From Acidobacterium sp. (GTDB lineage: Bacteria; Acidobacteriota; Terriglobia; Terriglobales; Acidobacteriaceae), in assembly GCA_003166955.1 (NCBI GenBank), contig PMUI01000050.1, forward strand, positions 1-44,715: 44,715 bases of DNA. The letters run 5' to 3'. Position 1 is the first letter of the stretch. The number at the start of each line of letters is the position of its first letter. The notes under the pieces were generated by a model. That model worked only from the letters and a program-made list of their open reading frames with translations. It was not told the origin of the DNA and searched no databases. This document shows positions 14 through 32,637 of the stretch, one piece after another. The position numbers and the translations under genes are program-made.

Positions 14-69
14 AGGGAATAGAAAAGCGCTCAGCGCTCAGCGCTCAGCGCACAGAGCGCAGAGCCCTT
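14..69. repeat. heptamer-register repeat array (left edge)
   Basis: Eight consecutive 7-base units can be laid in register here. Three are exact CGCTCAG (28-48), followed by a one-base variant. The first unit, AGGGAAT, is the same word that dominates the array at 21459-21486. The gene that would end just left of the array is outside the window. See the other arrays after stop codons at 10678, 11388, 12056, 21459, 24744, 32526 and 32603. Confidence 0.7.
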
Positions 70-127
70 CTCGTTGCTACTCGGTGGTTCTTTGGGTTGT
101 GCCTTGCAGGACTCTTTCGAGGCCGCT

Positions 128-172
128 TCATCTTCGATATTGACGCAGGTTTGGCTTCGGTCGATTTGGCGC
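128..172 (-). pseudogene. decayed fragment of the fabD 3' end
   Basis: About 40 of 45 bases match 1557-1601, the 3' end of the intact fabD, on the same strand and in the same reading frame. The translation keeps the fabD C-terminal words RQIDR and CVNIEDEA. Similarity stops abruptly on the fabD-upstream side (beyond 172) and fades downstream. The differences are partly synonymous, so the copy is old or came from a related genome. It and the intact fabD bracket the aldo/keto reductase as direct repeats. The rest of 1-367 shows only the heptamer array and no convincing gene. Confidence 0.65.
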
Positions 173-367
173 CGCGGTTCGTCGCGCCCGTTGTGGCGAA
201 TCACTTCCGAGGCACATCCGTAGCACGAAAGAGCTACTTCCTGATCGAACCGCTCGCGGCACACTGAGAGTTGGCGAGTCGGCAGTTCGCTCAGCATGAC
301 TCCGCCTCGGATCTGACGGATCGCGCGAGCATTTTCCGGCCTAACGCGTCAGCTCCCGGTCTGAACT

Positions 368-1465
368 ATGCAAGCGCTGACCGAACAATGCAGGCTTCGC
401 GTTCTCGGAGATTCCGATCTCGGACTCTCGCCCGTCGGTTTTGGCGCCTGGGCACTCGGGGGCGACGGATGGCATTACTCTCTCGGCCCTCAGGACGACA
501 AAGAATCCATCGCTGCCATCCATTGTGCTCTTGACCTGGGCATCAACTGGATCGACACCGCCGGCGTTTATGGGCTGGGTCGTTCGGAAGGGGTGGTGGG
601 TCGCGCGCTGAGGACTTCGCCGCACAAGGCACAAGTTTTTACGAAAATTTCCGTACGCTGGCGCGAGGACGGATCGCTTTACAACTCCCTCAGGGCCGAA
701 TCCATGGTCGAAGAGGTAGAGGGATCGCTGCAGCGCCTGGGTCTTGAGGCCATCGATCTCTGTCAGGTGCACTGGCCGGAGCCGGCGGCGGACATCGAGG
801 AGGGCTGGGAGACACTGGCCCGCTTGCGCGATCAGGGAAAGATCCGGTGGATCGGGGTATCCAACTTTTCTGTCGACCAGATGCGCCGCGCGATGAGGAT
901 TGCGCCCATTACAAGCGTGCAGCCGAATTACTCGATGTTGCGCCGCAAGGCTGAGGCGGACGTGCTTCCCTTCGCCCAGGCGAACGGTATCGGCGTTATC
1001 AATTACGCGCCAATGGGTTCGGGGCTGCTGACGGGCAACTTCGATGCGCGAAGGATCGCGGCGTTGCCGCTGGATGACTGCCGGCGAACGATGGCGCAGT
1101 TTCACGAGCCCCGCCTGAGCCGCAATCTGCGTCTGGTGGAATTGCTGCGCGAGATCGGCCGAGCGCACGGCGTGAGTGCGGGCGTTGTGGCGGTGGCGTG
1201 GACGCTCCATCACCCGGCCATCACCGGGAGCATCGTGGGATTCCGCAGCGTCAGGGAGGTGGAAGAGATCGCCCCCGCGCTTCACTTTCGGCTGAGAGAG
1301 AACGAATACCGGGAGATCGAAGGATTTCTCACATCGATTCGGTGGTATCTGGATTCGCTGTACGCTCGGTTTGCAGATGCCGTTCCGGTCGCGGGTGACC
1401 GTCTGAGCAGGGGTGTCGCCCTGGAATACGGATCCACATCAACCCCCGCCATTTTGAAAGGCTAA
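368..1465 (+). CDS. aldo/keto reductase
   Basis: A 365-residue NADPH-dependent oxidoreductase of the aldo/keto reductase superfamily, cytoplasmic, with an unknown aldehyde or ketone substrate. The expected catalytic tetrad is visible: D63 and Y68 in DTAGVYG, K93 in FTKIS, H135 in QVHWPE. The cofactor-side motifs GVSNFS and INYAPMGSGLLTG are also present. The region from about 325 to the end extends past the usual barrel and carries no motif I recognise. The ATG at 368 has no clear Shine-Dalgarno, so the start is provisional. It converges on fabD with 33 bases between the stops and lies between a fabD-tail fragment and intact fabD, which suggests insertion at the fabD 3' end. Confidence 0.9.
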   Translation: MQALTEQCRLRVLGDSDLGLSPVGFGAWALGGDGWHYSLGPQDDKESIAAIHCALDLGINWIDTAGVYGLGRSEGVVGRALRTSPHKAQVFTKISVRWREDGSLYNSLRAESMVEEVEGSLQRLGLEAIDLCQVHWPEPAADIEEGWETLARLRDQGKIRWIGVSNFSVDQMRRAMRIAPITSVQPNYSMLRRKAEADVLPFAQANGIGVINYAPMGSGLLTGNFDARRIAALPLDDCRRTMAQFHEPRLSRNLRLVELLREIGRAHGVSAGVVAVAWTLHHPAITGSIVGFRSVREVEEIAPALHFRLRENEYREIEGFLTSIRWYLDSLYARFADAVPVAGDRLSRGVALEYGSTSTPAILKG

Positions 1466-1498
1466 AGCCACAATCTCCGCGGCAGAGCGAGGGGAATG

Positions 1499-2458
1499 TC
1501 AGTCCTCAGCCCTGTGTTTTTGCAATGCGCCCTGCATCACCCGCTCCAGACTGGCCTCATCCTCGATATTGACGCAGGATTGGCCGCGGTCGATCTGGCG
1601 CATGAGACCGCCGAGGACTTTGCCGGGTCCAACTTCGACGAAGAAGGCCGGGTTCTGCGCGATGAGCAGGCGGATTGAATCGACCCAGCGCACGGCGCCG
1701 GTGACCTGGCGGATGAGCGCTTCGCGCAGCTTGCCGGGATCGGTGACCAGGGCCGCATCGACGTTGACGGCAACGGGAACGGTGGGCGCTGAGAAGGTGA
1801 GCGAGCGGAGCAGCTCTGCGAGGCGATCCTGGGCGGGCTGCATGAGCGCGCAATGGAAGGGCGCGCTGACCTGGAGTATGACGACGCGCCTGGCTCCTTT
1901 TGCTTTGCAGAGCTCGGCGGCACGCTCCACGGCGAGCGCATAGCCGGAGATAACCGTTTGCTCGGGCGAATTAAAGTTAGCCGGGGAAACGACATTGCGA
2001 GTCTCGGCCGCAGCGGCCGCACAGGCCTGGGTGGTTTCGTCCGGAGGCAGACCGAGCACGGCGGCCATCGCGCCTTTGCCTGCGGGTACTGCTTCCTGCA
2101 TGAACTGGCCGCGACTGCGCACGGTGCGCACGGCGTCGGCGAAATCGAGCGAACCGGCCGCGACGTTGGCAGAGTACTCGCCGAGGGAGTGGCCGGCAAC
2201 CCAGGTGGGGGTGACTCCTTTTTCCGCGAGCACGCGGAGTGCGGCGACGGAGACGGTGCAGATGGCGGGCTGCTGAAACTCGGTGAGCTTGAGCTGTTCT
2301 TCGGGCCCATCGAAACAGAGCTTCGAGATGGGAAAGCCCAGGGCCTCGTCGGCCTCTTCGAAGGTTCGCCGGGCGGCGGGGAATTTCTCGGCTAAATCCC
2401 GGCCCATGCCGGTGTACTGCGAATTTTGTCCTGGAAAAATGAAGGCGAGGTTGGTCAT
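1499..2458 (-). CDS. fabD: malonyl-CoA:ACP transacylase FabD
   Basis: Transfers malonyl from CoA to acyl carrier protein for fatty acid synthesis in the cytoplasm. The start is placed at ATG 2458 (MTNLAFIFPGQNSQ) because FabD proteins begin at this point. An open frame continues 26 codons upstream to 2536 but that segment is not FabD-like. The resulting 319 residues are close to the usual length of about 310. The nucleophile is S91 in GHSLGEY and the catalytic His is in SAPFHCALM. The oxyanion-hole region reads GQNSQ instead of the more common GQGSQ. It stands alone, without other fab genes. A diverged copy of its last codons lies at 128-172. Confidence 0.95.
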   Translation of the reverse strand: MTNLAFIFPGQNSQYTGMGRDLAEKFPAARRTFEEADEALGFPISKLCFDGPEEQLKLTEFQQPAICTVSVAALRVLAEKGVTPTWVAGHSLGEYSANVAAGSLDFADAVRTVRSRGQFMQEAVPAGKGAMAAVLGLPPDETTQACAAAAAETRNVVSPANFNSPEQTVISGYALAVERAAELCKAKGARRVVILQVSAPFHCALMQPAQDRLAELLRSLTFSAPTVPVAVNVDAALVTDPGKLREALIRQVTGAVRWVDSIRLLIAQNPAFFVEVGPGKVLGGLMRQIDRGQSCVNIEDEASLERVMQGALQKHRAED

Positions 2459-2592
2459 CTCTCTGGGAAGATTAACAGGCAAGCGCGATGATGCATGCGG
2501 GGTCCCGCACAGAGGCACGCGGGAGGTGCATTGCACCAGCGCACGGCATCAATTTGGAAAGAAGGATTAACTTTCTGCGAGTCTGGTGCGTC

Positions 2593-2693
2593 TATAAACC
2601 CAGAGGCGCGCGGGGCGTTGGACCCAATGCCAACGCCCCTTGCTGCCCTCCATGAAAGCCCCGGTGGTTCGTGGGTCCGCCGGGGCTTTTCTT
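2593..2693 (+). ncRNA. candidate structured small RNA or 3' regulatory element with two hairpins
   Basis: Hairpin 1 is a perfect 10-bp stem, GGGGCGTTGG (2612-2621) with CCAACGCCCC (2630-2639). Hairpin 2 is a 10-bp stem, AAAGCCCCGG (2655-2664) with CCGGGGCTTT (2680-2689), followed by a T-rich run on the + strand as in an intrinsic terminator. Seven bases at loop 1 (GGACCCA, 2620-2626) are exactly complementary to loop 2 (TGGGTCC, 2672-2678), allowing a kissing or pseudoknot contact. A TATAAA word at 2593-2598 could be a -10; no good -35 is seen. No + strand gene lies upstream, so the terminator has no obvious mRNA. The alternative is a terminator for the gvpL/F gene on the other strand. Confidence 0.4.
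2655..2693 (+). terminator. intrinsic terminator-like hairpin
   Basis: A 10-bp GC-rich stem with an A-rich 5' side and a TTTTCTTT tail on the + strand. On the - strand it would sit about 20 bases downstream of the gvpL/F stop but has only three T residues after the stem, so it is a better + strand terminator. It may serve both. Confidence 0.55.
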
Positions 2694-2712
2694 TGTGTGG
2701 GAACTTCGGCCG

Positions 2713-3507
2713 TCAGGCGGAGGCAGCAAGGTGAGCCGAGGGCCGCACCCCGTTGCCGGCGGCTGCCGGTGAAGTGTGATGCGTGAGCCGATGCACAAAG
2801 TGATACGGCGGCCAGGGGCCGGAGAGCTGCATGTGGCAGTCCTTCATGAGCACGCTGGCGCTGGAATACTTATTCTGATAGCGCTCCACGCCGCCTGAGT
2901 CGATGAGGTGGGCGATGTCGAGCAACATCTTGCCCGGCTCGACCCGCTTGCAGCTGACTTCTTCGGCCAGCGGCAGGAACATGCGATGCATCTGGACGGT
3001 GACGGCGCGGGCTTTGGTCTGCCGCTCGCGCTGCAGAGCCGCGCTTTCGCGCAGGTTGGACAGATACGCTTTGCCCACGGTGGGCAGGGGCCCGGGCGGT
3101 GCATAGCGGTGGAGCTGATTGCGGCAGCAATCGTCGAGCATGACCTTGAGGTGCATCTCGGCCTTGCCGCGGAGGCGTTCGATATTGGTGATGAACTGGC
3201 GCTGGTTGGAGCGGATCGAGCGCCTTAGCGACTCGTCATCGGCAAATACGGTTCCAAAACGGAAGGGCAGAACGGTGGAAGTTTTGAAGCAGTCGGAGAT
3301 GACGCGAGCGTGTTCGACGCCGGCCTGGTGATTGAGATTTTCAGAGGGGGAATATTCACTGACGATAACGGCTAAATCACTGGCTGGGTAGAGGAAGATT
3401 TGGTTTCCCTGGATTCCCGTAACTGCTTCCATTGGAATCGGCTTTCGGTGACGAAGCAGTTCGGGAAAGGCTTGTCGTTCTGTTATGCAGTAGGCATACC
3501 ACGCCAT
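2713..3507 (-). CDS. GvpL/GvpF family protein (orphan)
   Basis: A 264-residue protein of the gas vesicle GvpL/GvpF family. The family signature is clear: TVLPFRFGTVF in the middle, followed by a helical segment with LRGKAEMHLKV, and SGPWPPYHFV near the C-terminus. In gas vesicle producers GvpF/L are accessory proteins that contact the shell protein GvpA during assembly. No gvpA, gvpN, gvpK or other gvp gene lies within the window, so the role here is unknown and probably not flotation. GGAG lies about 9 bases before the ATG. The last 25 residues are Ala/Ser/His-rich and non-conserved in appearance. Confidence 0.85.
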   Translation of the reverse strand: MAWYAYCITERQAFPELLRHRKPIPMEAVTGIQGNQIFLYPASDLAVIVSEYSPSENLNHQAGVEHARVISDCFKTSTVLPFRFGTVFADDESLRRSIRSNQRQFITNIERLRGKAEMHLKVMLDDCCRNQLHRYAPPGPLPTVGKAYLSNLRESAALQRERQTKARAVTVQMHRMFLPLAEEVSCKRVEPGKMLLDIAHLIDSGGVERYQNKYSSASVLMKDCHMQLSGPWPPYHFVHRLTHHTSPAAAGNGVRPSAHLAASA

Positions 3508-3897
3508 TTTAGGTCGCTCCGCATGCTGGATTGGGAAAGGGTTGAGAACGTGAGCGTTGAGGGGATGGACATGGTTCTACGACTTTAGGACTTAACTGAA
3601 CTGCCACGTATGCTAGCCCCGCGTATAAACGACTGGCAACAGCGTGTTGGCGCAAGATGACGTAGGTGAGCGCGGCAATCGAAAGTAACTTTTACGCTGT
3701 GAAATTATTATTGGTAGGATGAAATCTTTCGCTAAAGTGCTCACTTTTAGTGTTGGATCGACTAGAATTGCCGCTCAATTGTGGTGGGCCTTCCCCGGGG
3801 AATCCAGATCGCCAGTCCTTGCGGGTTGAGGGATTCCCTACCTCCTGACGCCTAAACCCCATTTCGGATTTTGCCCGGCTGCGCAGGCGGCCCCGCC
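3508..3897. other. 390-base intergenic region, gvpL/F leader and xdhC 3' region
   Basis: No gene is convincing here. It is upstream of gvpL/F and downstream of xdhC (both -), so it should hold the gvpL/F promoter, but I cannot fix -35/-10 boxes. Visible structure: an imperfect palindrome CTAAAGTG/CACTTTTAG at 3732-3750, a separated inverted repeat GGGAATCC (3798-3805) and GGATTCCC (3831-3838), and a near-palindrome CCGCCT/AGGCGG at 3893-3905 that overlaps the xdhC stop codon. None is followed by a strong T-run. Confidence 0.5.
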
Positions 3898-4941
3898 TCA
3901 GGCGGGAATGGCGGGTGTCGAAGAGAGCTTGCGGGCTTCGCGTCCGGCAAAGACGGCCTGAAGCTCGGCCGCGATGGCGAGGGCGATGGCGGCGGGGGAG
4001 TGGCCGCCGAGATCGAGGCCGACGGGCGTGTGCAGGCGCGCCATGCATTCGGTGGCCGTGAGGCTGAGGCCGGGGGCGATTTCGCCGATGAGGCGTTCTG
4101 TGCGACGGTGCGGCCCGAGGATGCCGATATATTTCATATCTTTGGCAAGAAGCGCGCTGAGGATTTTGCGGTCCTGCTCGTAGCTGTGGGTCATGATGAC
4201 AGCGGCGTCTTCCAGGCCTGCCAGCGCGGAATCGAGGTTTTGGACGCGGGCTGCCTGGGGGAAGCGCTCCGGGCGGGCGAGGTTGGAGCGGTCGTCAGCA
4301 ATGGTGACATGCCAGCCGAGGGATGCGGTGAATTCGAGGAGCGGGAGCGTGTCGTCGCCGGCTCCGAAGATGATGAGCGCGGGCGGCGGGGCGACGAGTT
4401 CGACGAAATATTCGCCGCTGTTCGAGGACTTGCCGGTTCTGAGCGCTTCGATGGCCAGGGTGGTGGCTTCGGGATTCGCGCTTCGCTCATAGAGTATGTC
4501 GCCGGCGCCGTTGAGGATGAGCGCGGTGCCTGGAGAATTTGTGCCGGTGTCGGTTACGATTACGGACTCGGTGCGGTCTTCGACGCTGCGCCGCAGGGCT
4601 TCCAAGCTGGCTCCGGCTGGCTCGCCGCGTTCGAGGAGGACGATGACGGTTCCGCCGCAGCCGAGGCCGTAGGGCATGTCGCCGTCGTCGTCGAAGAAGC
4701 TGGAGTAGCGCTGTATCGACGAGCCCTGCTCGGTGAGCCACCAGGCTTTCTTTGCGATTTCGGCTTCGAGGCATCCGCCGCTGACGGTTCCGGCGCGCTG
4801 GCCGGAGGATGTGAGGATCATGCGCGCGCCGGGACGGCGGTAGGCTGAGCCCTCTACGCCGACTACGGTGGCGACGCAGATTTCTTCGTCTGCTCCGCTG
4901 GCGCGTTTCCACAGGTCGAGAATTTGCTTTAGCTCAGACAT
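3898..4941 (-). CDS. XdhC/CoxI (PaoD-like) molybdenum cofactor insertion protein
   Basis: A 347-residue XdhC-family protein. These bind molybdenum cofactor, promote its sulfuration and hand it to a molybdenum hydroxylase; they are not part of the mature enzyme. The N-terminal CoxI half shows GSAYRRPGARM and SGGCLE. The second half is a Rossmann-type domain with IIFGAGDDTLPLLEF, and the end has the family word PVGLDLGGHSPAAIALAIAAE. It is the last gene of the operon, 24 bases after the molybdopterin subunit, matching PaoD in paoABCD. The ribosome-binding site is weak, so coupling to the upstream gene is likely. Confidence 0.92.
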   Translation of the reverse strand: MSELKQILDLWKRASGADEEICVATVVGVEGSAYRRPGARMILTSSGQRAGTVSGGCLEAEIAKKAWWLTEQGSSIQRYSSFFDDDGDMPYGLGCGGTVIVLLERGEPAGASLEALRRSVEDRTESVIVTDTGTNSPGTALILNGAGDILYERSANPEATTLAIEALRTGKSSNSGEYFVELVAPPPALIIFGAGDDTLPLLEFTASLGWHVTIADDRSNLARPERFPQAARVQNLDSALAGLEDAAVIMTHSYEQDRKILSALLAKDMKYIGILGPHRRTERLIGEIAPGLSLTATECMARLHTPVGLDLGGHSPAAIALAIAAELQAVFAGREARKLSSTPAIPA

Positions 4942-4965
4942 TGCTTTGCCGCAGTTCGGACATCG

Positions 4966-7218: not shown

Positions 7219-7231
7219 GCTCTCCGTCTCC

Positions 7232-8215: not shown

Positions 8216-8227
8216 GGTCACGACTCC

Positions 8228-9784: not shown

Positions 9785-9798
9785 GACACGAAAGAACT

Positions 9799-9828: not shown

Positions 9829-9846
9829 GATCGCAGGAACTGCTCC

Positions 9847-10488: not shown

Positions 10489-10677
10489 ATGGCCGAGGCT
10501 TTGAGGAAGTCTGAAGAAATTCCAGACAACGCAGACGAAACGGCGCAGGACGAGCGTGAGCCCACTTTGGGCGAGGAGATTCGTGCGCGGGTGAAGCATG
10601 CCCATAAGGGCGATGTGGGAGTGCCTGGGACGAATGACGAAGTTTTCCAGGGGTCGAAGGTGCGGGAGCTGGGGTAG
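10489..10677 (+). CDS. small acidic protein, unknown function
   Basis: A 62-residue protein without Cys or membrane segments, rich in Glu and Asp in the first half. No family recognised. It is supported by a strong GAGGAGGGG ribosome site a few bases before the ATG and by its position in a run of + strand genes. The stop codon is followed at once by a heptamer array (10678-10712). Confidence 0.55.
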   Translation: MAEALRKSEEIPDNADETAQDEREPTLGEEIRARVKHAHKGDVGVPGTNDEVFQGSKVRELG

Positions 10678-10712
10678 GGCAGCCGGAAGCCTGAAGCTGG
10701 AAGCCGGGAGAG
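10678..10712. repeat. heptamer array directly after a stop codon
   Basis: Five 7-base units start on the first base after the TAG of the 62-residue gene. The consensus is GGAAGCC; the second and fourth units are exact, the others differ by one to three bases or more. It is part of the window-wide set of arrays described in the findings. Confidence 0.65.
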
Positions 10713-11062: not shown

Positions 11063-11383
11063 ATGGCCGACGACAACGCCATCACCGTCGATATCTACGA
11101 CCAGACCTACCGGCTGAACGGCAACGACCGCGAGTATGTCGAGCGGCTGGCCGCAACCGTCGACGCGAAGATGCGAGCCGTGGCCACGCAGGGACGGACG
11201 GTCGACTCACTGCGGGTGGCGGTGCTGGCGGCACTGAACCTGGCCGATGAGCTGGCGCGGCTCGAGGAACGGTACGCGGCTGTGACGAACGGCGGCGATA
11301 GTGTGGAATCGATCCGGAGCCGGGCGCACTCGCTGAGCGGCATGTTGGATGAGGTGCTGGGGGAAGAGCGCAAAGCGGGGTGA
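11063..11383 (+). CDS. zapA: cell division protein ZapA
   Basis: ZapA binds FtsZ and bundles its filaments at mid-cell. The 106 residues have the usual layout: an N-terminal beta strand-turn segment (ITVDIYDQTYRLNG) followed by EYVERLAATVDAKM and a long coiled-coil helix with VAVLAALNLADELARLEE. Length and motif spacing are normal. It is tightly coupled to the zapB-like gene upstream. In many bacteria 6S RNA lies beside zapA; here a 6S candidate lies about 3.4 kb further on. Confidence 0.88.
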   Translation: MADDNAITVDIYDQTYRLNGNDREYVERLAATVDAKMRAVATQGRTVDSLRVAVLAALNLADELARLEERYAAVTNGGDSVESIRSRAHSLSGMLDEVLGEERKAG

Positions 11384-11387: not shown

Positions 11388-11401
11388 AGGGTACAGGGTG
11401 C
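11388..11401. repeat. short heptamer pair after the zapA stop
   Basis: Two units, AGGGTAC and AGGGTGC, begin 5 bases after the zapA TGA. The 11-base word ACAGGGTGCAG found here recurs exactly in the array at 24744-24792. Confidence 0.5.
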
Positions 11402-11425
11402 AGTAGAAGCGGCGAACGCGAGATT

Positions 11426-12055: not shown

Positions 12056-12069
12056 TTGGTCACTGGTCA
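12056..12069. repeat. possible heptamer pair after a stop codon
   Basis: TTGGTCA and CTGGTCA lie in register starting 4 bases after the TGA of the membrane protein gene. Only two units, so this is the weakest member of the set. Confidence 0.35.
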
Positions 12070-21020: not shown

Positions 21021-21452
21021 ATGCAGGTTTTATATACAGCGGATGTAACGGCCGAGGGCGCGCGCCACGGCCATGTGCGCAGCTCCGATGGGCTGCTCGA
21101 TCTGGACCTGGCGCTGCCGCCGGGGATGGGCGGCAAGGGCGACAAGACGAACCCGGAGCAGTTGTTTGGCGCGGGTTACGCGGCGTGCTTTGGCGGCGCG
21201 GTGGAATACATGGCGCTTCAGGCAAAGAAAAAGACGGGCGTGGTCGCGGTGCGGGCGCGTGTCGGAGTCGGTCCATTCGACGAGGGCAAGGGCGAGGGGT
21301 TCACTCTGCGCGTCGAACTGGACGTGACGATTCCAGAGCAGGATCAGGCGAGCGCGGAGGAACTGGTCGCGGCTGCGCACCGGGCTTGTCCGTATTCGAA
21401 TGCGACGCGCGGGAATATTGAGGTGAAGCTAACCGCGCACGGCGGAAAGTGA
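21021..21452 (+). CDS. ohr: organic hydroperoxide resistance protein Ohr
   Basis: A thiol peroxidase of the OsmC/Ohr family that reduces organic and fatty-acid hydroperoxides in the cytoplasm. The 143 residues carry both redox cysteines: C56 in GYAACFGGA and C124 in HRACPYSNATRGN. The second motif identifies Ohr rather than OsmC. A strong GGAGGA ribosome site precedes the ATG. No OhrR regulator gene is adjacent. The stop codon is followed by a heptamer array at 21459. Confidence 0.93.
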   Translation: MQVLYTADVTAEGARHGHVRSSDGLLDLDLALPPGMGGKGDKTNPEQLFGAGYAACFGGAVEYMALQAKKKTGVVAVRARVGVGPFDEGKGEGFTLRVELDVTIPEQDQASAEELVAAAHRACPYSNATRGNIEVKLTAHGGK

Positions 21453-21458
21453 AAAAAC

Positions 21459-21486
21459 AGGGAACAGGGAATAGGGAATAGGCGAC
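21459..21486. repeat. heptamer array after the ohr stop
   Basis: Four units in register starting 7 bases after the TGA. Consensus AGGGAAT: units two and three exact, unit one AGGGAAC, unit four AGGCGAC. The AGGGAAT word also occurs at 14-20. Confidence 0.7.
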
Positions 21487-22468: not shown

Positions 22469-22471
22469 CGG

Positions 22472-24718: not shown

Positions 24719-24723
24719 GACCC

Positions 24724-24729
24724 ATTATA
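24724..24729 (-). promoter_or_regulatory. perfect -10 (TATAAT) for rel
   Basis: On the - strand TATAAT is followed by GGGTC and then the rel ATG. The -35 position (about 24747-24752) falls inside the heptamer array and does not match consensus. Transcription would start at the A of the start codon or within 2 bases. Confidence 0.5.
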
Positions 24730-24743
24730 TGCGGGAGTTGCAA

Positions 24744-24792
24744 GAGACACGTGACACGTGACAGGTTGCAGGTTTCAGGTGACAGGGTGCAG
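24744..24792. repeat. seven-unit heptamer array between rel and the hydrolase gene
   Basis: Seven contiguous 7-base units in perfect register. On the + strand the consensus is GTGACAG; sense to the hydrolase it is CTGTCAC. The array ends 6 bases past the hydrolase stop (24799) and 25 bases before the rel start. This is the longest array in the window. It contains the word ACAGGGTGCAG shared with 11393-11403. Confidence 0.75.
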
Positions 24793-24798
24793 CGCTCG

Positions 24799-26193
24799 TC
24801 ACTCTGGCTTGCCTGGATTCTTTGGCTTGGGTGGCGTTTTCTCCGGCGGCGGCGGGCTGCCGGGGAGCAGGCCTGGTGTGGGGGGCTTGTTGTCGTGGAC
24901 CCAGGAGAGCAGCTCGTCGAAGGCGAGGCCGGTTTGGTCGGCCGTCACGTTGCAGTGGCCGTCGCGGTCGACGTACTGCTCGACGAAGTTGTCACCGTTG
25001 CCGAGCCGCCTCGTCAGCTCGTTGTACCAGCCCGTGGTCGAGGCCGGTACGAGCGGGTCGTAGATGGTGTGGACCTCCAGCAGTTTGCGATGCAGGTTGC
25101 CGTTGGGCGAATACCAGTTAGCGAGGAAGCGGTACGCGTTGGGATCAGCCGCATAGCGGTGTACGCGCTGGTTCAGCAGCGCATCATTGTCCGTCCCGTT
25201 GTAGACCAGGTTGCGATTGTCGAACGGATTGCCGCCCGATTTGAGCCGGAGATCCTCGATCACGAAGGTGTTGAAGACGAGCACGTCGGCGAGGCCGCGG
25301 TTGGCGTGGATGTTGGCGATCTGGCGCACCAGCGCCGCCTGATCCGGATTCGCATCGAGGCTCTTCTGCACATTCGCGATGGTGGGAATGTCATTCATCA
25401 TGAAGGTCGGCGGAATGTGCTCGACATCGGGCAGGACGCCGGGGAAAAACGCGTCGAAGGCGACGCGGTTGGCGAAGGCTCGCTGCATCACCAGGTCCGC
25501 CGGGGCCAGCACGCCACAAACCGCGAGGCCTCCCGCGTACTCCTTTGGATTTTGCTCGAGCCCCATCAGCGTGAGCAGCCCGCCCATGGAGTGGCCCATG
25601 AGGAAGGTCTCGCGCGGCTGGCCGTATTTCTTCCGGAAGTAGCGGCGCAGCGCATCGGTCTCGCTGGCAGCCTGCGGCACGGCCCATCCTCCGACCGCGT
25701 ATCCGGAGCGCGCGACCGCGTAGCCGCGGTTGAGAATCTCCTGCAGGATGCGTGTGGGCGGGTATTTGGGGTCGAAGGTCTGCGGCGCCGGCTCATAGCC
25801 ATGGAAGTAGAGGACCAGGCCGCGGTTCCAGTCTTTGGGAACGTCGATGCGGAAGGAGGCGCCGTTGATGTGGCCGACTTCGGTCTGGACTGGGGCTGGC
25901 GGTGGGGCGGCGGGCGAGGGCGCAGTCGCGGCGGGGGCGGGAGCCGGTGTCGAAGCGGGGGTGGTGCCGGCGGAAGGGGTGTGGTTGGCCGCGGCTCCGG
26001 AGTCGGGTGGTGACGGGTGCGCGCTCGGCGGCGTTTGACTGGGGGGCGAGGACGAGGAGGGTGCGTGAGTCGGTTGCGTCGCTTGAGGCGGCGCCCCCGG
26101 TTGCATGGCGGGAGCTGTCTGCGCGTTCGATCTGGCCGCGGCAAACGGCAAGATCAGCAGCAACACGGCAACGCGCCGGAGGGGACCCTTCAA
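24799..26193 (-). CDS. secreted alpha/beta hydrolase with Pro/Ala-rich linker
   Basis: A 464-residue protein: signal peptide (VAVLLLILPFAAARSNAQ), a low-complexity Pro/Ala/Ser/Thr linker over about residues 26-104, and an alpha/beta hydrolase domain. The nucleophile is S202 in LMGHSMGGLL; a likely acid is in TIYDPLVP and the His in DGHCNVT. The overall form resembles polyhydroxybutyrate depolymerase-like and dipeptidyl-type esterases, but the substrate is unknown. The linker suggests a tethered or surface-exposed enzyme. A second Pro/Lys-rich tail ends the protein. It diverges from the methyltransferase gene with 82 bases between starts. Confidence 0.85.
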   Translation of the reverse strand: MKGPLRRVAVLLLILPFAAARSNAQTAPAMQPGAPPQATQPTHAPSSSSPPSQTPPSAHPSPPDSGAAANHTPSAGTTPASTPAPAPAATAPSPAAPPPAPVQTEVGHINGASFRIDVPKDWNRGLVLYFHGYEPAPQTFDPKYPPTRILQEILNRGYAVARSGYAVGGWAVPQAASETDALRRYFRKKYGQPRETFLMGHSMGGLLTLMGLEQNPKEYAGGLAVCGVLAPADLVMQRAFANRVAFDAFFPGVLPDVEHIPPTFMMNDIPTIANVQKSLDANPDQAALVRQIANIHANRGLADVLVFNTFVIEDLRLKSGGNPFDNRNLVYNGTDNDALLNQRVHRYAADPNAYRFLANWYSPNGNLHRKLLEVHTIYDPLVPASTTGWYNELTRRLGNGDNFVEQYVDRDGHCNVTADQTGLAFDELLSWVHDNKPPTPGLLPGSPPPPEKTPPKPKNPGKPE

Positions 26194-26275
26194 GTACGCT
26201 CCTTTCCGCTGTGCGAAGATGGGTCTTTGCCCAGCGCATCGCAGCGCCAGGCAGATCAGCCTTTAGTAGACTCTG

Positions 26276-27649
26276 ATGCCGACCCACGCCAAACGCGAAT
26301 CGCCCCGCAAGCAACAAGCTAAACGAAAACCGCGGGAGCTGGGTCCGGGAAATCGCCCTGCCGGGCGCGAGACGGCGAACCAAGCCGGGCGCCCACTCTC
26401 GGATTCGGCGCCAATGGAGCGAGCGACGCCTGAGATTCCCGGGGCGATTCTCATCTCGCGCCGCGCCGCGGATCGGCTGCGCGCCGGGCACGTGTGGGTC
26501 TATCGGTCGGATGTGGAGGAGTGGCCGGGGGAGCCGGGTCAAATTGCTGCGGGACTGGTTCCGCTGGCGGATCGGCGTGGCTCGCTGCTGGGGACCGGGC
26601 TGTACAGCCCTGCTTCGGAGATTGCGCTGCGGCTGGTTGCGCAAGAACTGGTCTCGGATGAGGAATGGCTGGGGATGCTGCGCGCGCGGCTGCGTGCGGC
26701 GATCGCGCGGCGCGTGCCGATGCTCGATGCGGACAGCAACGCCTGCCGGCTGGTCTTTAGCGAGGCGGATGAGCTGCCCGGTATCACCGTGGACAAGTAC
26801 GCCGGCCTGGTCATTGTGCAGCTTCGGCATAAGGCTCTCGATAACGACGCGACCCGCTCCGCTGTGGCGGAAATCCTCAGGGAAGCCCTCGATCCCGACA
26901 CGATTCTGGAGCGCGAAGAGCCGCGCATCCGCGAGCTGGAGCAGCTCAGCGTGCCTGCGTCGGCGACGCTGTTCGCGCGCGACCCGGAAAATCCGGGCAC
27001 GAAGACAGTTTTCCACCTCAACGGCCTTCAGTTTCACTTTGACGCGACCAGCGGGCAGAAGACCGGGGCGTTTCTCGACCAGCGTGAAAACTACGCCGCC
27101 GCTGCGCGCTACGCCCACGGCGAGGCGCTCGACGTTTGCACCTACCAGGGTGGGTTCGCGCTGCATCTGGCGCGCGTTTGCCCGCGGGTGACTGGGAATG
27201 ACGTTTCGCGCGCGGCACTCGAAGTGGCGGAACAAAACCTGGAGGCGAATCGCGCAGCCCTTGGTTCGTCCGAAGTCGATTGGGTTGAAGCGGACGCCTT
27301 CAATCTGCTGCGCGACTGGAGCGACGCTGGCGCGGTCTACGACACCATCGTGCTCGACCCGCCCGCCTTTGCGAAGAGCAAACGCGCCGTTGAAGGCGCG
27401 CTGCGCGGGTATCGGGAGCTGAACCTGCGCGCCCTGAAGATGCTGCGCCCGGGCGGACGGTTGATCACCTGCTCCTGCTCGCACCACGTTTCGCTGGGCG
27501 GGTTCATGGAGACGCTGCGGGCAGCGGCAGGCGATGCTCGGCGCCGGGTGCGTGTGCTGGAGGTGCGGGGCGCGTCTCCGGACCATCCCGTGGTGCTCAA
27601 CATCCCTGAGACCGAATATCTGAAGTGTGTGATTGTCGAGGCTGAGTGA
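26276..27649 (+). CDS. class I rRNA methyltransferase, RlmI-like (PUA plus SAM domain)
   Basis: A SAM-dependent 23S rRNA cytosine methyltransferase of the RlmI/YccW type. After a basic 50-residue N-terminus, a PUA domain (AGHVWVYRSDVEEW) spans about 58-125. A central EEHMT-like domain follows and the SAM site is DVCTYQGGFALHLA near 290. Catalytic motif IV is LDPPAFAKSK and motif VI is TCSCSHH. The basic N-terminus is not part of the family and translation may begin at ATG 26414 (MERATPEIPG); neither start has a clear ribosome site. It converges with iscS, 3 bases between stops. Confidence 0.88.
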   Translation: MPTHAKRESPRKQQAKRKPRELGPGNRPAGRETANQAGRPLSDSAPMERATPEIPGAILISRRAADRLRAGHVWVYRSDVEEWPGEPGQIAAGLVPLADRRGSLLGTGLYSPASEIALRLVAQELVSDEEWLGMLRARLRAAIARRVPMLDADSNACRLVFSEADELPGITVDKYAGLVIVQLRHKALDNDATRSAVAEILREALDPDTILEREEPRIRELEQLSVPASATLFARDPENPGTKTVFHLNGLQFHFDATSGQKTGAFLDQRENYAAAARYAHGEALDVCTYQGGFALHLARVCPRVTGNDVSRAALEVAEQNLEANRAALGSSEVDWVEADAFNLLRDWSDAGAVYDTIVLDPPAFAKSKRAVEGALRGYRELNLRALKMLRPGGRLITCSCSHHVSLGGFMETLRAAAGDARRRVRVLEVRGASPDHPVVLNIPETEYLKCVIVEAE

Positions 27650-27652
27650 GCC

Positions 27653-28840
27653 TCAGGTGAACTCGGCGTACTCCGGCGAAATCTCCCGCAGCTTCTTCAC
27701 CACATCCACCAGCCGTTCCGCGACATAGTCCACTTCTTCTTCGGTGTTGAAGCGGCCGAGGCCGAAGCGAATCGAGCTGTGCGTGGCCTGTTCGTCGAGG
27801 CCCAGCGCGCGCAGGACGTGCGAGGGCTCGATTTTCGCCGAGGTGCACGCGGAGCCGCTGGAGAGCGCCACGTCTTTGAGGCCCATCATGAGCGTCTCGC
27901 TGTCGACGTGCTCGAAGGTCATATTCAGATTGCCGGGGAGACGATGCGTTTGCGATCCGTTCACGAGCACACGGTCGAGCGCCGCCTCCAACTTCGCTTG
28001 CAGCCGATCGCGCAGCGCGCCCACGCGAATCGCTTCCGCCTCCAGCTCCGCGCCGGCGATTTCGCACGCCGCGCCGAGGCCGACGATGCCGGGCACATTC
28101 AGCGTGCCCGACCGCATGCCGCGCTCGTGGCCGCCGCCGTGCATCTGCTCCGTCAGCTCGACACGCGGGTTGCGCCGCCGCACATAGAGGGCGCCGATGC
28201 CCTTGGGGCCGTAAATTTTGTGGCCGGAGATCGACAGCAGGTCGATGTTGCTGCGGTTCACGTCGATGGGGATCTTGCCAACGGCCTGCGCCGCGTCGGT
28301 ATGGAAAGGCGCGCCGCGTTCGTGGCACAGCGCGCCGATCTCGTCGATCGGCTGGAGGGTCCCAATCTCGTTGTTCGCGGCGAGAATCGTGACCAGCACC
28401 GGTTTATCGTCGTCCATTGCGAGGCGGAGATCGTCGAGGCGAATCCGCCCCTGTTCATCCACCGGCAGCATCGTCACGCGGCATCCCTGCTTCTCGAGCC
28501 ACCTGCACGTGTCGAGCACGGCGTTGTGTTCGGTGGCCTGGGTGATGACGTGGCCGCGGCCGCCCTGCATCTGAACCGACCCCTGGACTGCGCCGGTGAT
28601 GGCCAGATTGTCGCTCTCGGTCGCGCCCGAGGTGAAGACGATCTCCCGCGCCGACGCGCCGATGAGCTTTTCCACCTGCGCGCGCGCCTTCTCGACAGCC
28701 TGATCCGCCGCCCAGCCAAATCCATGGCTGCGGCTGGCCGCGTTGCCGTACACCTCGGTGAGGTACGGCATCATCGCCTCCAGCACCCGCGGATCGAGCC
28801 GCGTGGTGGCGTGATTGTCCATGTAGATAGGGAGTTGCAC
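27653..28840 (-). CDS. iscS: cysteine desulfurase IscS/NifS
   Basis: PLP enzyme that takes sulfur from cysteine for Fe-S clusters and thio-modifications. The start is GTG 28840 ([17 protein letters not shown]), where IscS proteins begin; the frame is open upstream but that part is not IscS-like. The product is 395 residues. The PLP lysine is in [10 protein letters not shown] and the catalytic Cys in [16 protein letters not shown]. It follows the iscR-type gene by 26 bases. No iscU, iscA, hscA or fdx gene follows, since the next gene is convergent. Scaffold genes must lie elsewhere. Confidence 0.94.
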
Positions 28841-28866
28841 CGGCTTCGCGTGCCTCTGCTTCGAGC

Positions 28867-29328
28867 TTACAGCTGGATCGTGACCAGTTCCTGGCCGGGG
28901 TTGCGCCGCACCGTAACTTCGGTGCTGGACCCGGCCAGATCGGCGATGCTGATGCTGCGCAGCAGCCCCGAAATGCTGTCGTTGACCCGCGCCAGTGGTT
29001 CTTTGATGGTGCAGGAGTCGGTGAGGTCGCAACCGCTGTGGCTCAGTCCGCAGGAGGTGATGAAGAGCGGGCCGTCGATGGCGTGAATCACTTCGAAGGC
29101 CGAGATTTCACGGGCGGCTTTGAGGAGGGAATAGCCGCCGTTCATGCCGGCGTGCGAGCGCAGAATGCCCACCTTCGCCAGGCGCTGCAGAATCTTGGCC
29201 AGCAGCTGCGGCGGAATGTGATACGCCTCCGCGATGTCCTTGGCGCTGAGCGAGGCCTCGTCCGCATGCTCGGACAGATACTTGAGCGCCATGAGGCCAT
29301 AGTCGGCTTTTTTGGTGAGCCTGAGCAA
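28867..29328 (-). CDS. iscR: Rrf2-family regulator, IscR-like
   Basis: A 153-residue winged-helix repressor/activator that senses Fe-S cluster supply. The N-terminal helix-turn-helix is [21 protein letters not shown] with the recognition region [15 protein letters not shown]. Three cysteines in the region [16 protein letters not shown] fit the 2Fe-2S ligand pattern of IscR. The start is TTG 29328, with AGGGGCG just upstream; the N-terminal sequence matches Rrf2 proteins exactly at this point. As first gene of iscRS it probably autoregulates the pair. Confidence 0.92.
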
Positions 29329-29466
29329 AATTCGCCCCTATAGCAAGTTTACGGGGAAGAGGAAGCGAATTCAATTCGAGGGGCTGGATGGCGGGCCGGC
29401 CGGTCCCGGGGGCGCAGCGAGCTTTCGCAGGAGCGGCAGCGCGAGAGTATCCAGACGCGAGCCGCT

Positions 29467-30048
29467 TCAGGAATGCGCCGCCCTCAGGCGCGCTGCGCGG
29501 TTTCTGGTGTGGACAATGATGACAGCATGGATGATAACGGCGACACTCAGACCGGCCACGTGGTGGATCCAGGTGGCCTGCACGCCGGCGCTCTTCCAGA
29601 GAGTTACGCAACTCAGGGGCAGGAACAGGAAGACCGCGGTCCATAGTCCTGGGTTGTAGATTCGCTGAGCGATGGCGGCAACGATGTGGATCGCCCCGTT
29701 CACGGCAACGAGCCAGTCGGCGATCAAGCCCCACCCGGCGCCTGCTACGACAGCCAGGTAGAGAGCCAGCGATGTGACACCCCAGACCCCGGGAATGTTA
29801 ATCCAGAGAACTGCTGCTGGGGTCAGCCCTTCGACGCCGCCGAAAACATGCTGGTTAACAAACCGCCGGAAACGATCCCCGGTGTGTTCTTCCACCTGAT
29901 GCAGCATGTAAATCGGGATATGGAGGTAAATGAGGACGAGAAACCAGCTCCATTGCAGCCGCAGGATGGGTATGGGCAACAGAAGGAGCAGAAGAATGCC
30001 CATCCAGAGCGTTGCCGTGACCCAGTGGCGATAGAGCCAGGAGACCAT
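29467..30048 (-). CDS. HXXEE-domain membrane protein
   Basis: A 193-residue membrane protein with five or six hydrophobic helices. The name-giving motif HQVEEHTGDRF follows the second helix, with FVNQH just after it. HXXEE proteins resemble small membrane metalloenzymes but no reaction is established. GAGAC-like purines precede the ATG. It follows the beta-lactamase gene by 43 bases on the same strand and may be co-transcribed. Confidence 0.82.
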   Translation of the reverse strand: MVSWLYRHWVTATLWMGILLLLLLPIPILRLQWSWFLVLIYLHIPIYMLHQVEEHTGDRFRRFVNQHVFGGVEGLTPAAVLWINIPGVWGVTSLALYLAVVAGAGWGLIADWLVAVNGAIHIVAAIAQRIYNPGLWTAVFLFLPLSCVTLWKSAGVQATWIHHVAGLSVAVIIHAVIIVHTRNRAARLRAAHS

Positions 30049-30091
30049 AAAGAAAATTGTGGACCGATTGTAACGCCGCGACCCTGGCGCT

Positions 30092-31006
30092 TCAGGGAGC
30101 AGTGGACTGGCGCTGCGCAGCGGCGTCGATTGCTTGGCTGATTTGCCCGATGACCTGCTCGCGGACGGCCGCTGGAGCGGCAGAGTCCGACACCATGACC
30201 GCGAGCGCCAGCCGGCGGCCGTCGGGGAGCGTGATCAAGCCAACGTCGTTGGTGGCGTTGGTGAAGTTTCGTCCGGTGCCCGACGTCCCTGTCTTGTCCG
30301 CGACCACCGTGCCCGACGGGAGCAGCGCTTTGATGCGGTGATCGCCGGTATGGGAGGCCGTCATCCAGCCGAGGAGCAGTTGCGTGTGCTCCGGGGTGAG
30401 CGGGGAGCGGTCGGCGAGGAGCCGCAGCAGAGCTACGAGAGCGCGAGGCTCCGCGGAGTCGCGATCCTCGAGCTTCACCTCGCGGCCGAGCACCTTCTCC
30501 GTATCGACAATGTGAACGCCGCCGATACCGTGACTGCGTACATACGCATCTACCGCGCCGGGCCCGCCCAGCGTGCGGATCAGAATGTCCGACGCAACGC
30601 CGTCGCTTTCTGAAACCGCGAGGCGCAGCAGGTCCTCGAGCGGAACGTCGACATTGCCGTGGGGATGAGCATCGCGCAATGGGCTGTACTGGTCGGGGGA
30701 GATGAGGTCGGAGGGCAGAAACCGGATGTTCTGGTCCAGGCGCAGCCGCCGCTGCTCGACGGCGTGCAGGATTGCCATCGCAATGGGCAGCTTGTAAACC
30801 GACTGCATCGGGAACGGCTCGTTGGCACGGAGGTTGCAGTCGAGGATCTGGCCGGGCAGCGAACACGCCACGCCGACGCGCCCGTGCGCCTGCGCGGCAA
30901 TGCGGGCGATTTCGGTGGAGAGCTGCCCGTGGGCGGGGATCGCAAGCGCCACGGACGTCAGCGTGACGCTCAGAACGAAAATGGGGGACAAGCGCGCAGG
31001 TCGCAT
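30092..31006 (-). CDS. class A beta-lactamase
   Basis: A 304-residue periplasmic serine beta-lactamase with signal peptide ending near PAHGQ. The nucleophile motif is SVYK (S69-K72). The second motif is SDG (134-136), where most class A enzymes have SDN. The omega-loop acid is E170 in TEKVLGRE, with Gly instead of Asn four residues later. The KTG box is DKTGTSG (238-240). These substitutions resemble the class A2 branch (PER/VEB-like) more than TEM. Intact length and motifs suggest activity, but the spectrum is not predictable. No adjacent ampR or mobile element. Confidence 0.92.
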   Translation of the reverse strand: MRPARLSPIFVLSVTLTSVALAIPAHGQLSTEIARIAAQAHGRVGVACSLPGQILDCNLRANEPFPMQSVYKLPIAMAILHAVEQRRLRLDQNIRFLPSDLISPDQYSPLRDAHPHGNVDVPLEDLLRLAVSESDGVASDILIRTLGGPGAVDAYVRSHGIGGVHIVDTEKVLGREVKLEDRDSAEPRALVALLRLLADRSPLTPEHTQLLLGWMTASHTGDHRIKALLPSGTVVADKTGTSGTGRNFTNATNDVGLITLPDGRRLALAVMVSDSAAPAAVREQVIGQISQAIDAAAQRQSTAP

Positions 31007-31147
31007 TCTCCGGAATTCTATCGAATAGCGGCTGCGCGGGATCTGCGCGCGTTCTGGTGCCCCCGGGCAAACTCGCGCGAAAACGATTATGTTGGCAGGG
31101 GCAATTTATTTCGGGGCAATGGACTCGGAATCGGGGGATCAGCGCGC

Positions 31148-32521
31148 GTGAATCGCAGAAGCTTCTTGAAAGTGGCAGGAACGGCAACGACACAAGCGGT
31201 CATGGCAACACGGCTGCGCGCGATGGTGGAGCAGGGGCAACCGGGCACGCTGATCGCTCCGCAGCAGGCCGAGCCTGAGAAGCCCATCGCCGCGAATGAC
31301 CATATCCAGATCGCGCTCATTGGCGCGGGCGGGCAGGGCCAGCACGATACCCAAGTTGCCGTGACGGTGCCGGGCGTGAAGCTGGTTGCCGCTGCCGACT
31401 GCTACGACAACCGCCTCGCGCACTGCAAGGAGCTGTGGGGACCCGACATCCTCACCACCCGCGACTACCGCGAGATTCTCGACCGCAAGGACATCGACGC
31501 GGTCATCATCGGCACGCCGGATCACTGGCACAAGCAGGCTTCGATCGACGCGATGAAAGCGGGCAAGGACGTCTACTGCGAGAAACCGATGATCCACCTC
31601 TACTCGGACGGTCCGGCCATGATCGAGGCGGCGCAGGCGACGAAGCGCACCCTGCAGATCGGGAGCCAGCGCGTCAGCAGCATTGTTTATGCCAAGGCGA
31701 AAGAGCTGCTGGCGGCGGGCGCGATCGGACAACTGAACATGGTCAGCGCGTTCTGGGACCGCAATTCGTCGATCGGCGCGTGGAACTACACCGTTCCTCC
31801 CGATGCGTCACCAGAAACGTGCGACTGGCCGCGCTTTCTCGGGACGGCCCCGAAGATTCCCTTCAATGGCGAGCACTTTTTCCAGTGGCGCAAGTGGAAG
31901 GCTTACGGCAGCGGCGTGGCAGGCGATCTGTTCGTCCACCTCTTCAGCGGCACGCACTTCATCACCGGCGCGAAGGGCCCGACGCGCGCCATGGCAACCG
32001 GAGGGTTGCGCTTTTGGAAAGATGGCCGCGACGCGCCCGATGTGCTGCTCGGACTCTTCGACTATCCCGAGGGCTTTAACCTCAGCTTGCGCGTCAACTT
32101 TGTCGACGGCGGCGCGGAAGGCGAGGGCTTCCTCTTTGCTGGCTCTGAAGGCCAGATGGAGATTGCCGGCAACACCGTCACCGTGAGCCGCGTGCCGCGC
32201 GAGAAAGAGCCCGGGCTGATGATCGGATCGTTCACCGATGCGATGCAGAAGCAGATCACCGCCGCCTATCGGCAGAAGTATCCGCTGGTCGAAGCGACTG
32301 AGCCCACGCGCGTGGGGTACGACAAGTACGTCGCGCCGCGCGACTACAGCGATAGCTACGACCACTTTAAAAACTTCTTCGCGTCGGTACGTTCGCGGCA
32401 GCCGGTTGTTGAGGACGCGGTCTTCGGATACCGCGCTGCCGGTGCGGCTCTGCTGAGCAATCTCAGCTATGAGCGGGACGCCATTGTGAAGTGGGATCCT
32501 GAGGCGATGAAGCTGGGGTGA
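31148..32521 (+). CDS. Tat-exported Gfo/Idh/MocA-family oxidoreductase
   Basis: A 457-residue NAD(P)-dependent sugar oxidoreductase. The start is GTG 31148 with GGGGGA about 8 bases upstream. The N-terminus, MNRRSFLKVAGTATT, is a twin-arginine signal. The nucleotide fold shows IALIGAGGQGQHD and the family motif CEKPM (as DVYCEKPMIH). These secreted Gfo/Idh enzymes act on glycosides, often forming 3-keto sugars with a bound nicotinamide cofactor. It converges with a DUF1080 gene, a partnership common in this phylum. A long inverted repeat made of heptamers separates the two. Confidence 0.92.
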   Translation: MNRRSFLKVAGTATTQAVMATRLRAMVEQGQPGTLIAPQQAEPEKPIAANDHIQIALIGAGGQGQHDTQVAVTVPGVKLVAAADCYDNRLAHCKELWGPDILTTRDYREILDRKDIDAVIIGTPDHWHKQASIDAMKAGKDVYCEKPMIHLYSDGPAMIEAAQATKRTLQIGSQRVSSIVYAKAKELLAAGAIGQLNMVSAFWDRNSSIGAWNYTVPPDASPETCDWPRFLGTAPKIPFNGEHFFQWRKWKAYGSGVAGDLFVHLFSGTHFITGAKGPTRAMATGGLRFWKDGRDAPDVLLGLFDYPEGFNLSLRVNFVDGGAEGEGFLFAGSEGQMEIAGNTVTVSRVPREKEPGLMIGSFTDAMQKQITAAYRQKYPLVEATEPTRVGYDKYVAPRDYSDSYDHFKNFFASVRSRQPVVEDAVFGYRAAGAALLSNLSYERDAIVKWDPEAMKLG

Positions 32522-32525
32522 GAGC

Positions 32526-32560
32526 AGAGTTTAGAGTTTAGGGATTAGAGTTTAGGCTCA
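32526..32560 (+). repeat. heptamer array after the Gfo/Idh stop (left arm of inverted repeat)
   Basis: Five units in register starting 5 bases after the TGA. Consensus AGAGTTT: units one, two and four are exact. The first 16 bases (32526-32541) are exactly complementary to 32622-32637 in the facing array. Confidence 0.75.
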
Positions 32561-32602
32561 CCGGCCTCGAACTCAATCCTCTCCTGGATACCAAGCCCGC
32601 CC

Positions 32603-32637
32603 GGACACCAAACTGTAAACTCTAAACTCTAAACTCT
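32603..32637 (-). repeat. heptamer array after the DUF1080 stop (right arm of inverted repeat)
   Basis: Read on the - strand, five units start 6 bases after the DUF1080 stop (32643). The first three are exact AGAGTTT and the fourth is ACAGTTT. It is the same unit, in the sense orientation to its own gene, as the array at 32526. Confidence 0.75.

Follow-up and report, generated by a model that had tools for sequence, protein, structure and literature searches.

Heptanucleotide arrays just past stop codons in an Acidobacterium genome: a possible 3'-untranslated-region element with a changing word

Tandem arrays of 7-base units recur in a 44,715-nucleotide (nt) stretch of an Acidobacterium sp. 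genome (the window, bases 1-44715 of contig C56; the genome, here G000, has 5.41 Mb in 142 contigs and 64% G+C), and several begin directly behind a stop codon. The RelA/SpoT gene of the window has its best named match, at 86%, in an Acidobacteriaceae bacterium, and we accordingly place the genome in that family. Are these arrays a mutational quirk of spacer DNA, or an RNA element? The original prediction, made from the letters of the window, had listed eight loci, held that the register is strictly 7 and that the arrays are coupled to gene 3' ends, and named a lag-7 excess in intergenic DNA and a preference for stops over starts as tests. Comparison of sequences across the genome and its relatives leads us to favour, tentatively and with less than even confidence, a reading of the arrays as 3'-untranslated-region (3'-UTR) elements that would arise through 7-nt duplication and be maintained by selection for their place, their strand and a fixed motif. 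We hold this to be only modestly more probable than a mutational hotspot.

The arrays of the window were read directly and scored (thresholds of 9-10). A wider sample of G000, made up of the window and 40 stretches of 20 kb (844,715 bases), was annotated with a home-made codon-model caller, which called 684 genes with approximate starts. At a score of at least 10, this sample contains 67 intergenic arrays at lag 7, against 0, 1, 1, 2, 4, 0, 7, 5, and 2 at lags 4, 5, 6, 8, 9, 10, 11, 12, and 13, respectively, and the 40 and 30 intergenic arrays at lags 14 and 21 are harmonics of 7. The register of exactly 7 was confirmed, and the predicted intergenic excess is present (67 vs 0-7 at other lags). 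Lag 15 gave 15 intergenic arrays, a higher count than the other lags not divisible by 7.

A lag-7 array (score of at least 9) was found in 43 of 370 post-stop stretches and in 5 of 443 pre-start stretches (Fisher p = 6e-11), and the other lags tested yield at most two. The placement tests left out the 16 lag-7 arrays that lie inside called genes, as well as three of the 67 intergenic arrays which lack a neighbour, leaving 64 with both neighbouring genes called. A stop codon is at most 7 nt away from 40 of these 64, whereas 2000 random placements within each array's own spacer gave a mean of 11.6 and a maximum of 22. There was no excess near starts in the same 64 arrays (6 observed vs 5.5 expected). 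Relative to expectations from spacer length, arrays are enriched in convergent spacers (20 vs 9.2), depleted in divergent spacers (4 vs 17.9), and close to expectation in tandem spacers (40 vs 36.8). Both the coupling to gene 3' ends and the preference for stops over starts are therefore borne out in this sample. These counts also bear on the idea that the arrays are neutral leftovers, 7-mers that would expand anywhere, be purged from genes and promoters and simply remain in spacers. Such a process would account for the intergenic location of 67 of the 83 lag-7 arrays and for the depletion of divergent spacers, but not for the accumulation at stops within the arrays' own spacers, nor for the same stop preference in convergent spacers of 200-700 nt, which have no start on either side. 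As the placement test contradicts it, unless the gene caller is grossly wrong, we consider this explanation quite unlikely.

Most of the arrays share a frame. A phase-and-strand alignment of the 67 G000 arrays, carried out blind to genes, gave the consensus AGGGA(A/G)(C/T) with 5.5 bits, compared with 3.3-3.4 when unit columns were permuted. In the orientation set by this alignment, a stop codon lies 5' of 43 arrays, at a median distance of 3 nt and no more than 7 nt away for 35. We then pooled 843 gene ends from the genus with a spacer of at least 35 nt, 86 of which carry an array starting at most 14 nt past the stop: 45 of 462 in G000, 16 of 109 in G006, 6 of 21 in G010, 6 of 47 in G008, 6 of 42 in G011, 4 of 25 in G002, 2 of 20 in G004, 1 of 4 in G009, and none of 8 in G001, 1 in G005, or 104 in G003. 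This pool mixes G000 with stretches from relatives, several of which were picked because G000 has arrays there. Among the 86 stop-anchored arrays the AG phase is in sense in 73 (71 by a YAG-weighted rule), and most arrays show a YAG-NNNN frame on the mRNA-sense strand. The claim that units are common within a locus and differ between loci is correct as far as it goes, but the units are not wholly local, since most fall into this frame. The words that follow YAG include GGAA, CCGG, CTGG, GTTA, GGTA, and CGTT, among others.

The onset of the arrays is sharp. Across the 86 array ends, the last codons and the stop codon show only background matching at lag 7; the match is 0.43 at position +1 and climbs to about 0.8 by +6. 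A clear frame could be read in 68 sense arrays. Of these, 55 have CAG and one has TAG as the first triplet; this triplet lies 2-5 nt past the stop in 48, and in 48 it opens with a C that follows G or A. In later units the Y position is occupied by T (101), C (81), A (25), or G (25). Four or five units is the commonest size, with 24 and 20 of the 68 arrays, respectively (44 together). Seeding of the array from the stop codon itself was rejected, as the stop is out of register in the G000 genus (match 0.07, 0.27, and 0.26); in two distant Acidobacteriota, G041 and G047, some arrays seem to extend into the stop codon. A role as backup stops was also set aside: all three frames are closed within 35 nt at 22% of gene ends with an array and at 1% of the other ends, at best a by-product. 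Searching for GCAG behind array-less stops gave no clear signal when nucleotides 1-12 were compared with 31-42 (G000, 28/417 vs 20/417; G006, 8/93 vs 1/93; G003, 10/104 vs 11/104; G008, 8/41 vs 4/41).

The positions of the unit are not equally variable. Measured against the consensus of each stop-anchored array, deviations amount to 3.9% at the G of YAG, compared with 9% at A, 15.6% at Y, 9.6% at n1, and 13-16.5% at n2-n4. G therefore varies 2.3 to 4 times less than other positions (p = 8e-9 against n2-n4, computed from rounded rates). The genes that were scanned upstream of arrays are ordinary where they have a Pfam match (OsmC-, GFO/IDH-, 3-keto-disaccharide-hydrolase-, MoaA-, EtfB-, HPF-, MacB/FtsX-, MFS-, GAF/ANTAR-, and bactofilin-like), and two small ones of 62 and 92 amino acids (aa) have no Pfam match. 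At two of four G000 loci inspected by eye a G+C-rich hairpin lies downstream of the array, so the array falls within the likely transcript. One of the two lies near position 172127 of contig C97 (L027). Its hairpin, of the type GGGGAGC...GCTCCCC and also judged by eye, persists in the five relatives shown, although the word of the array differs or is absent there.

G-quadruplex elements, as proposed for the repeats of Xanthomonas and Nostoc in the sections of PMC4692102 drawn on here, would fit the commonest unit, AGGGAAY, which resembles GGGAATC, and would fit the preference for four to five units. Four GGG tracts are present in 14 of the 73 sense arrays and four GG tracts in 25 more, but 34 have neither, and four units is likewise the commonest size among arrays that lack YAGGG (13 of 38). 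On the count of 34 in 73 we rejected the quadruplex as a common denominator, and the explanation as a whole appears distinctly improbable.

To compare 3' ends between species, we used ten relatives, mainly around four loci, and 208 best-hit pairs from 77 genes. Orthology was defined as the best tblastn match with an identity of at least 60% and an alignment extending to the C terminus, and synteny was not enforced. Removing 13 pairs in which one genome lacked a called gene end, and a further 66 whose spacer was shorter than 35 nt, left 129. Array density varies widely within the genus, from 17 intergenic arrays per 120 kb in G006 to 1 per 120 kb in G003. In the five array-rich relatives, an array is present in 14 of 30 pairs where G000 has one and in 4 of 56 where it does not (rates of 0.47 and 0.07; Fisher p = 4e-5, a value for which pairs of one gene are not independent). 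Counted by gene, at least one relative has an array for 7 of 12 array genes and for 4 of 29 others; gene-level permutation gave p = 0.0008, and p = 0.002 for spacers of 60-400 nt only.

The units themselves are not kept. In 16 orthologous pairs of arrays, units match at 4.31 of 7 positions vs 4.09 of 7 in random pairs (p = 0.25), so they are no more alike than random ones. Behind an EtfB-like gene, whose proteins are 86-97% identical, the unit is AGGGTTT in G000, AGCGTTC in G002 and G011, AGCCNGT in G006, and AGGGATT in G008; G010 has a sub-threshold pair of AGGGAAC and G003 (88% identity) has none. Behind the GFO-type gene of the window the unit is AGAGTTT in G000, AGGGNTT in G008, and AGCCGGA in G010, G004 has two GCTTCCA units, and no array was found in G001, G003, G005, G006, or G011. 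These comparisons suggest that place and 7-nt rhythm matter more than the word. In the array-poor G003, the TAG stop of an OsmC gene sits within a short GCAGCCG repeat (L135:1655-1705), so that the repeat supplies the gene's end.

How might such arrays arise and persist? Local birth by slippage, as put forward in the original prediction, may plausibly be the birth step; alone it does not explain why several species carry arrays at the same gene ends with unrelated units. On the 3'-UTR reading, a unit would be copied by 7-nt tandem duplication (slippage), and arrays landing just past a stop, in sense and with a fixed motif every 7 nt, would be retained since the RNA would be read there. The simplest reader would be a protein that binds single-stranded RNA, covers about 7 nt, needs YAG, chiefly its G, and tolerates any NNNN; it could act on decay, ribosome release, or termination. 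Further duplication would re-homogenise the free positions, so that the word turns over and the element stays. The CAG opening, the mode of four to five units, and the kept place with a changing word all speak for selection acting on a 7-nt rhythm in which one motif is fixed.

The closest competitor is a mutational hotspot without function, in which 7-nt slippage would be favoured just past stops and arrays would come and go neutrally at predisposed gene ends. Nascent RNA that is free of ribosomes past the stop could form R-loops there, best where the sense RNA is purine- or G-rich. A hotspot explains the onset just past the stop, the sense polarity, the lack of an excess at starts, and the recurrence of arrays at the same ends with new units. 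It does not predict the CAG opening or the mode of four to five units, it needs an extra assumption for one constant phase, it offers no reason for exactly 7, and a congener, G003, is nearly without arrays. We regard a hotspot as possible, if somewhat less probable than a 3'-UTR element.

Several observations weigh against a 3'-UTR element. The AG phase is antisense in 13 of the 86 stop-anchored arrays, and in the array at 24741-24786 of the window the YAG strand is antisense to both adjoining minus-strand genes. AG is also favoured by composition: 62 of the 86 arrays are fully in phase, vs 42.7 (maximum 48) with columns permuted. In 42 arrays away from stops, G deviates in 4.4% of cases, making it as constant as at stops (A, at 15.3%, is less constant than at stops), which indicates that the constraint on G is not tied to the 3'-UTR place. 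A hotspot accommodates this equal constancy, and we consequently lowered our estimate for the 3'-UTR element slightly and raised that for the hotspot slightly. The conservation test rests on 12 array genes. An array is missing from the relative in 16 of 30 pairs, and G003 as a whole is nearly without arrays, so the element is dispensable; none of nine G000 array ends carries one in G003. Finally, the binding protein is a candidate only. HutP recognises NAG-N4 RNA, that is, AG-ending triplets spaced by four nucleotides, and its family (PF09021) was found in none of the 12 genomes searched; among 14 control genomes it was found in B. subtilis. RRM proteins were rejected as readers because their matches, in 6 of the 12 genomes, are not associated with array density; the sole strong match belongs to G004, a genome with few CAGGG arrays, although an array was found at 2 of the 20 ends sampled from it. 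Cold-shock proteins are candidate readers because one CspB per heptamer is reported in the part of PMC4679880 considered here.

A broader form of the 3'-UTR reading, which we think rather doubtful, is that in several phyla a 7-nt rhythm past stops would serve as a word-independent platform with one fixed motif per heptad, specific to the lineage (YAG here). A protein of the cold-shock-domain type, or a HutP-like ring, would bind about 7 nt per subunit, and words born by slippage could be swapped without loss of function. If true, this would explain why heptamers, rather than hexamers or octamers, abound in many bacterial spacers.

Some arrays are paired, raising the possibility that arrays are arms of terminator-like hairpins. 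A pair in the window (32526/32610) and one each in G008 and G010 could form long stems from a common unit, and inverted partners were seen, at a looser cut-off and without a random control, for 12 of the 20 arrays of G041 and 17 of the 36 of G047. In the G000 sample, only 4 of 67 arrays (in two spacers) have an inverted partner vs 1.8 expected. Arrays behind both stops were found in 3 of 103 convergent spacers (in G000, G008, and G010) vs 1.6 expected; their arms share the word at 7, 6, and 7 of 7 positions, but shuffling partners among the three spacers gave p = 0.16, and random pairs reach at least 6 of 7 in 10.5% of cases. We therefore rejected the hairpin as a general feature of G000 arrays, which have few inverted partners, and stem-loops appear very unlikely as an overall explanation. 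In the convergent pair of G008 (L133:9034-9175) the arms have even the opening GGCAGGGGATAGGG in common and extend almost to the two stops, to about 1 nt from each, and it looks as if one arm was copied from the other.

A mobile element of the repetitive extragenic palindrome (REP) type, spread by a transposase (RAYT), was the last explanation considered. According to the portion of PMC12306157 used here, a stop codon is at most 15 nt away for 446 of 4,072 enterobacterial REPs (an earlier study that it cites counted 260 of 496), and REPs near stops can act on translation of the upstream gene. The arrays resemble REPs in that a share sits close to stops, and similar units recur across the genome; they differ in being tandem, mostly not palindromic, and not shared in sequence, whereas REPs are palindromic with a common sequence (PMC12306157, in part). 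Regional dialects, in which neighbouring arrays would have common units, had been suggested by eye but were rejected (permutation p = 0.18-0.41). Y1 transposase (PF01797) is present in all 12 genomes in numbers independent of array density, with one copy in the array-poor G003, one each in the array-rich G002 and G011, three each in G000 and G006, and six in G004. A REP-like origin is barely credible. Taken together, quadruplexes, hairpins, RAYT, HutP, and RRM proteins do not, in the tests made, account for the arrays.

Within the window itself, six of the eight loci originally listed are clear 7-base arrays, and the two at 11388 and 12057 are too weak alone, being, one by one, not separable from chance (Table 1). 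The claim that arrays start 0-7 bases after a stop holds at the called upstream genes (0, 4, 4, 3, 4, and 5 nt) but not for the core of the array at 24741, which is further away; the range originally given for that locus, to 24792, yields 6 nt. No counterpart of the 24741 array was found at the best-hit gene ends in G011 and G003. For the first array, originally placed at 14-69, the upstream gene is not inside the window. The window begins in or beside an array (1-69), and so do four other G000 contigs (C8, C21, C22, and C105), with arrays at most 40 bases from a contig end. Assembly breaks at these sites are probable, and the number of long arrays may therefore be underestimated.

Table 1. 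Heptamer arrays of the window and the genes beside them
Feature	Position	Strand	Remark
Partial AGGGAAT-type units AATAGGGAATAG	11-22	+	beside the AGCGCTC array
AGCGCTC-unit array	26..65	+	any upstream gene would be off the contig, before base 1
Small open reading frame, 62 aa, no Pfam match	10489..10677	+	stop precedes the array at 10678
AGCCGGA-type array	10678..10710	+	0 nt after the stop of the 62-aa frame
zapA-like gene (PF05164)	11063..11383	+	upstream of the weak array 11388..11403
Weak 2-unit array AGGGTACAGGGTGCAG	11388..11403	+	score 6.5, sub-threshold; 4 nt past stop (11383)
Weak 2-unit array TGGTCACTGGTCA	12057..12069	+	score 6, sub-threshold; 4 nt past stop (12052)
OsmC-like gene (PF02566)	21021..21452	+	upstream of the array 21456..21482
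AACAGGG/AATAGGG array	21456..21482	+	3 nt past the stop of the OsmC-like gene
GACACGT/GACAGGT/TGCAGGT array	24741..24786	+	between two minus-strand genes
Alpha/beta-hydrolase-like gene	24799-26193	-	stop at 24799, 12 nt from the array core 24741-24786
GFO/IDH/MocA-type gene	30665..32521	+	array at its 3' end
AGAGTTT array	32526..32555	+	4 nt past the stop of the GFO/IDH/MocA-type gene
Second AGAGTTT array	32610..32637	-	sense of the convergent gene, 5 nt past its stop; can pair with 32526-32555
3-keto-disaccharide hydrolase-like gene (PF06439)	32643..33428	-	convergent partner of the GFO/IDH/MocA-type gene

Beyond the genus, stop anchoring is strong in G047 (21 vs 8.5 expected, maximum 15) and within chance in G041 (11 vs 7.3, maximum 12). 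The words of these two distant Acidobacteriota differ (GATTTCA, AAGTCTG, and GGATTGC). Unlike in the G000 genus, intergenic arrays at lags 8 and 9 are also raised in G041 (10 and 15), G047 (10 and 10), and G046 (0 and 15) (L171-L190). When 79 of 80 sampled loci were grouped and lag 7 was compared with lags 4, 5, 8, 10, 11, and 13, lag-7 arrays clearly exceeded other lags in other Acidobacteriota (14 vs 0-2), with a slight excess in Acidobacteriaceae-type (5 vs 0-2), delta/Myxo/Geo (4 vs 0-2), Nitrospira (2 vs 0), and Firmicutes (2 vs 0-1) loci. Inverted heptamer pairs about 12-44 nt apart were seen at L082:1390-4192, L085:9188-9972, and L117:1667-1758, loci named Acidobacteria, Thermoanaerobaculia, and Nitrospira.

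The tandem heptanucleotides of Calothrix go by the name STRR. Like the arrays described here they are tandem 7-nt units in a bacterial genome, but three words are reported for them, as cited in the consulted sections of PMC4692102. MacGregor 2015 (PMC4679880, in part) describes TAACTGA direct repeats in marine Beggiatoaceae, which are also 7-nt repeats with a proposed post-transcriptional role and no common gene function, but which consist of one word, mostly located just upstream of start codons in the main genome. In Geobacter metallireducens, 49 copies of four tandem GGGACCG units were called putative regulatory elements in the part of PMC2700814 used here; the four 7-nt units are alike, but there is one word, found inside genes as well as between them.

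The nearest relatives of the arrays are the heptameric repeats GGGAATC / GGGGA(C/T)T of Xanthomonas and Nostoc (Rehm et al. 2015, PMC4692102). The sections of that paper drawn on here place downstream repeats mostly 0-50 bp past the stop on the coding strand, most often with four units and with few between divergent genes, at sites often common to two relatives while length and sequence vary. They also describe repeats close upstream of starts on the non-coding strand and common inverted pairs (70 in Xcc), and cite earlier notes of a heptamer excess in bacterial spacers, with its cause unsettled. The link to gene 3' ends, of which the original prediction knew no description for this phylum, is thus in print for other phyla; a literature search, mainly of open-access papers, found no report of heptamer arrays in Acidobacteria. 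One genus here offers array-rich and array-poor members, kept ends with changing words, and a measurable constraint at one position, and such contrasts make "mutational quirk or RNA element?" a testable question for the heptamer excess in spacers (PMC4692102).

Heptamers near stops are therefore a known kind of element, as the consulted sections of PMC4692102 attest, and the arrays of G000 share with those of Xanthomonas and Nostoc the 7-nt units, the intergenic bias, the preference for the stop side and coding strand, the mode of about four units, the scarcity between divergent genes, and sites kept with varying sequence. They differ from the single G-tract unit type followed there in having many words in a YAG-NNNN frame, mostly without four GGG tracts, and different words at orthologous ends; the start-side repeats and frequent inverted pairs described there also contrast with the lack of an excess at starts and the few inverted pairs (4/67) found here. 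The open set of words in one frame, the sharp onset, the independence from GGG, and the turnover of the word make these arrays a variant of the known heptamer kind.

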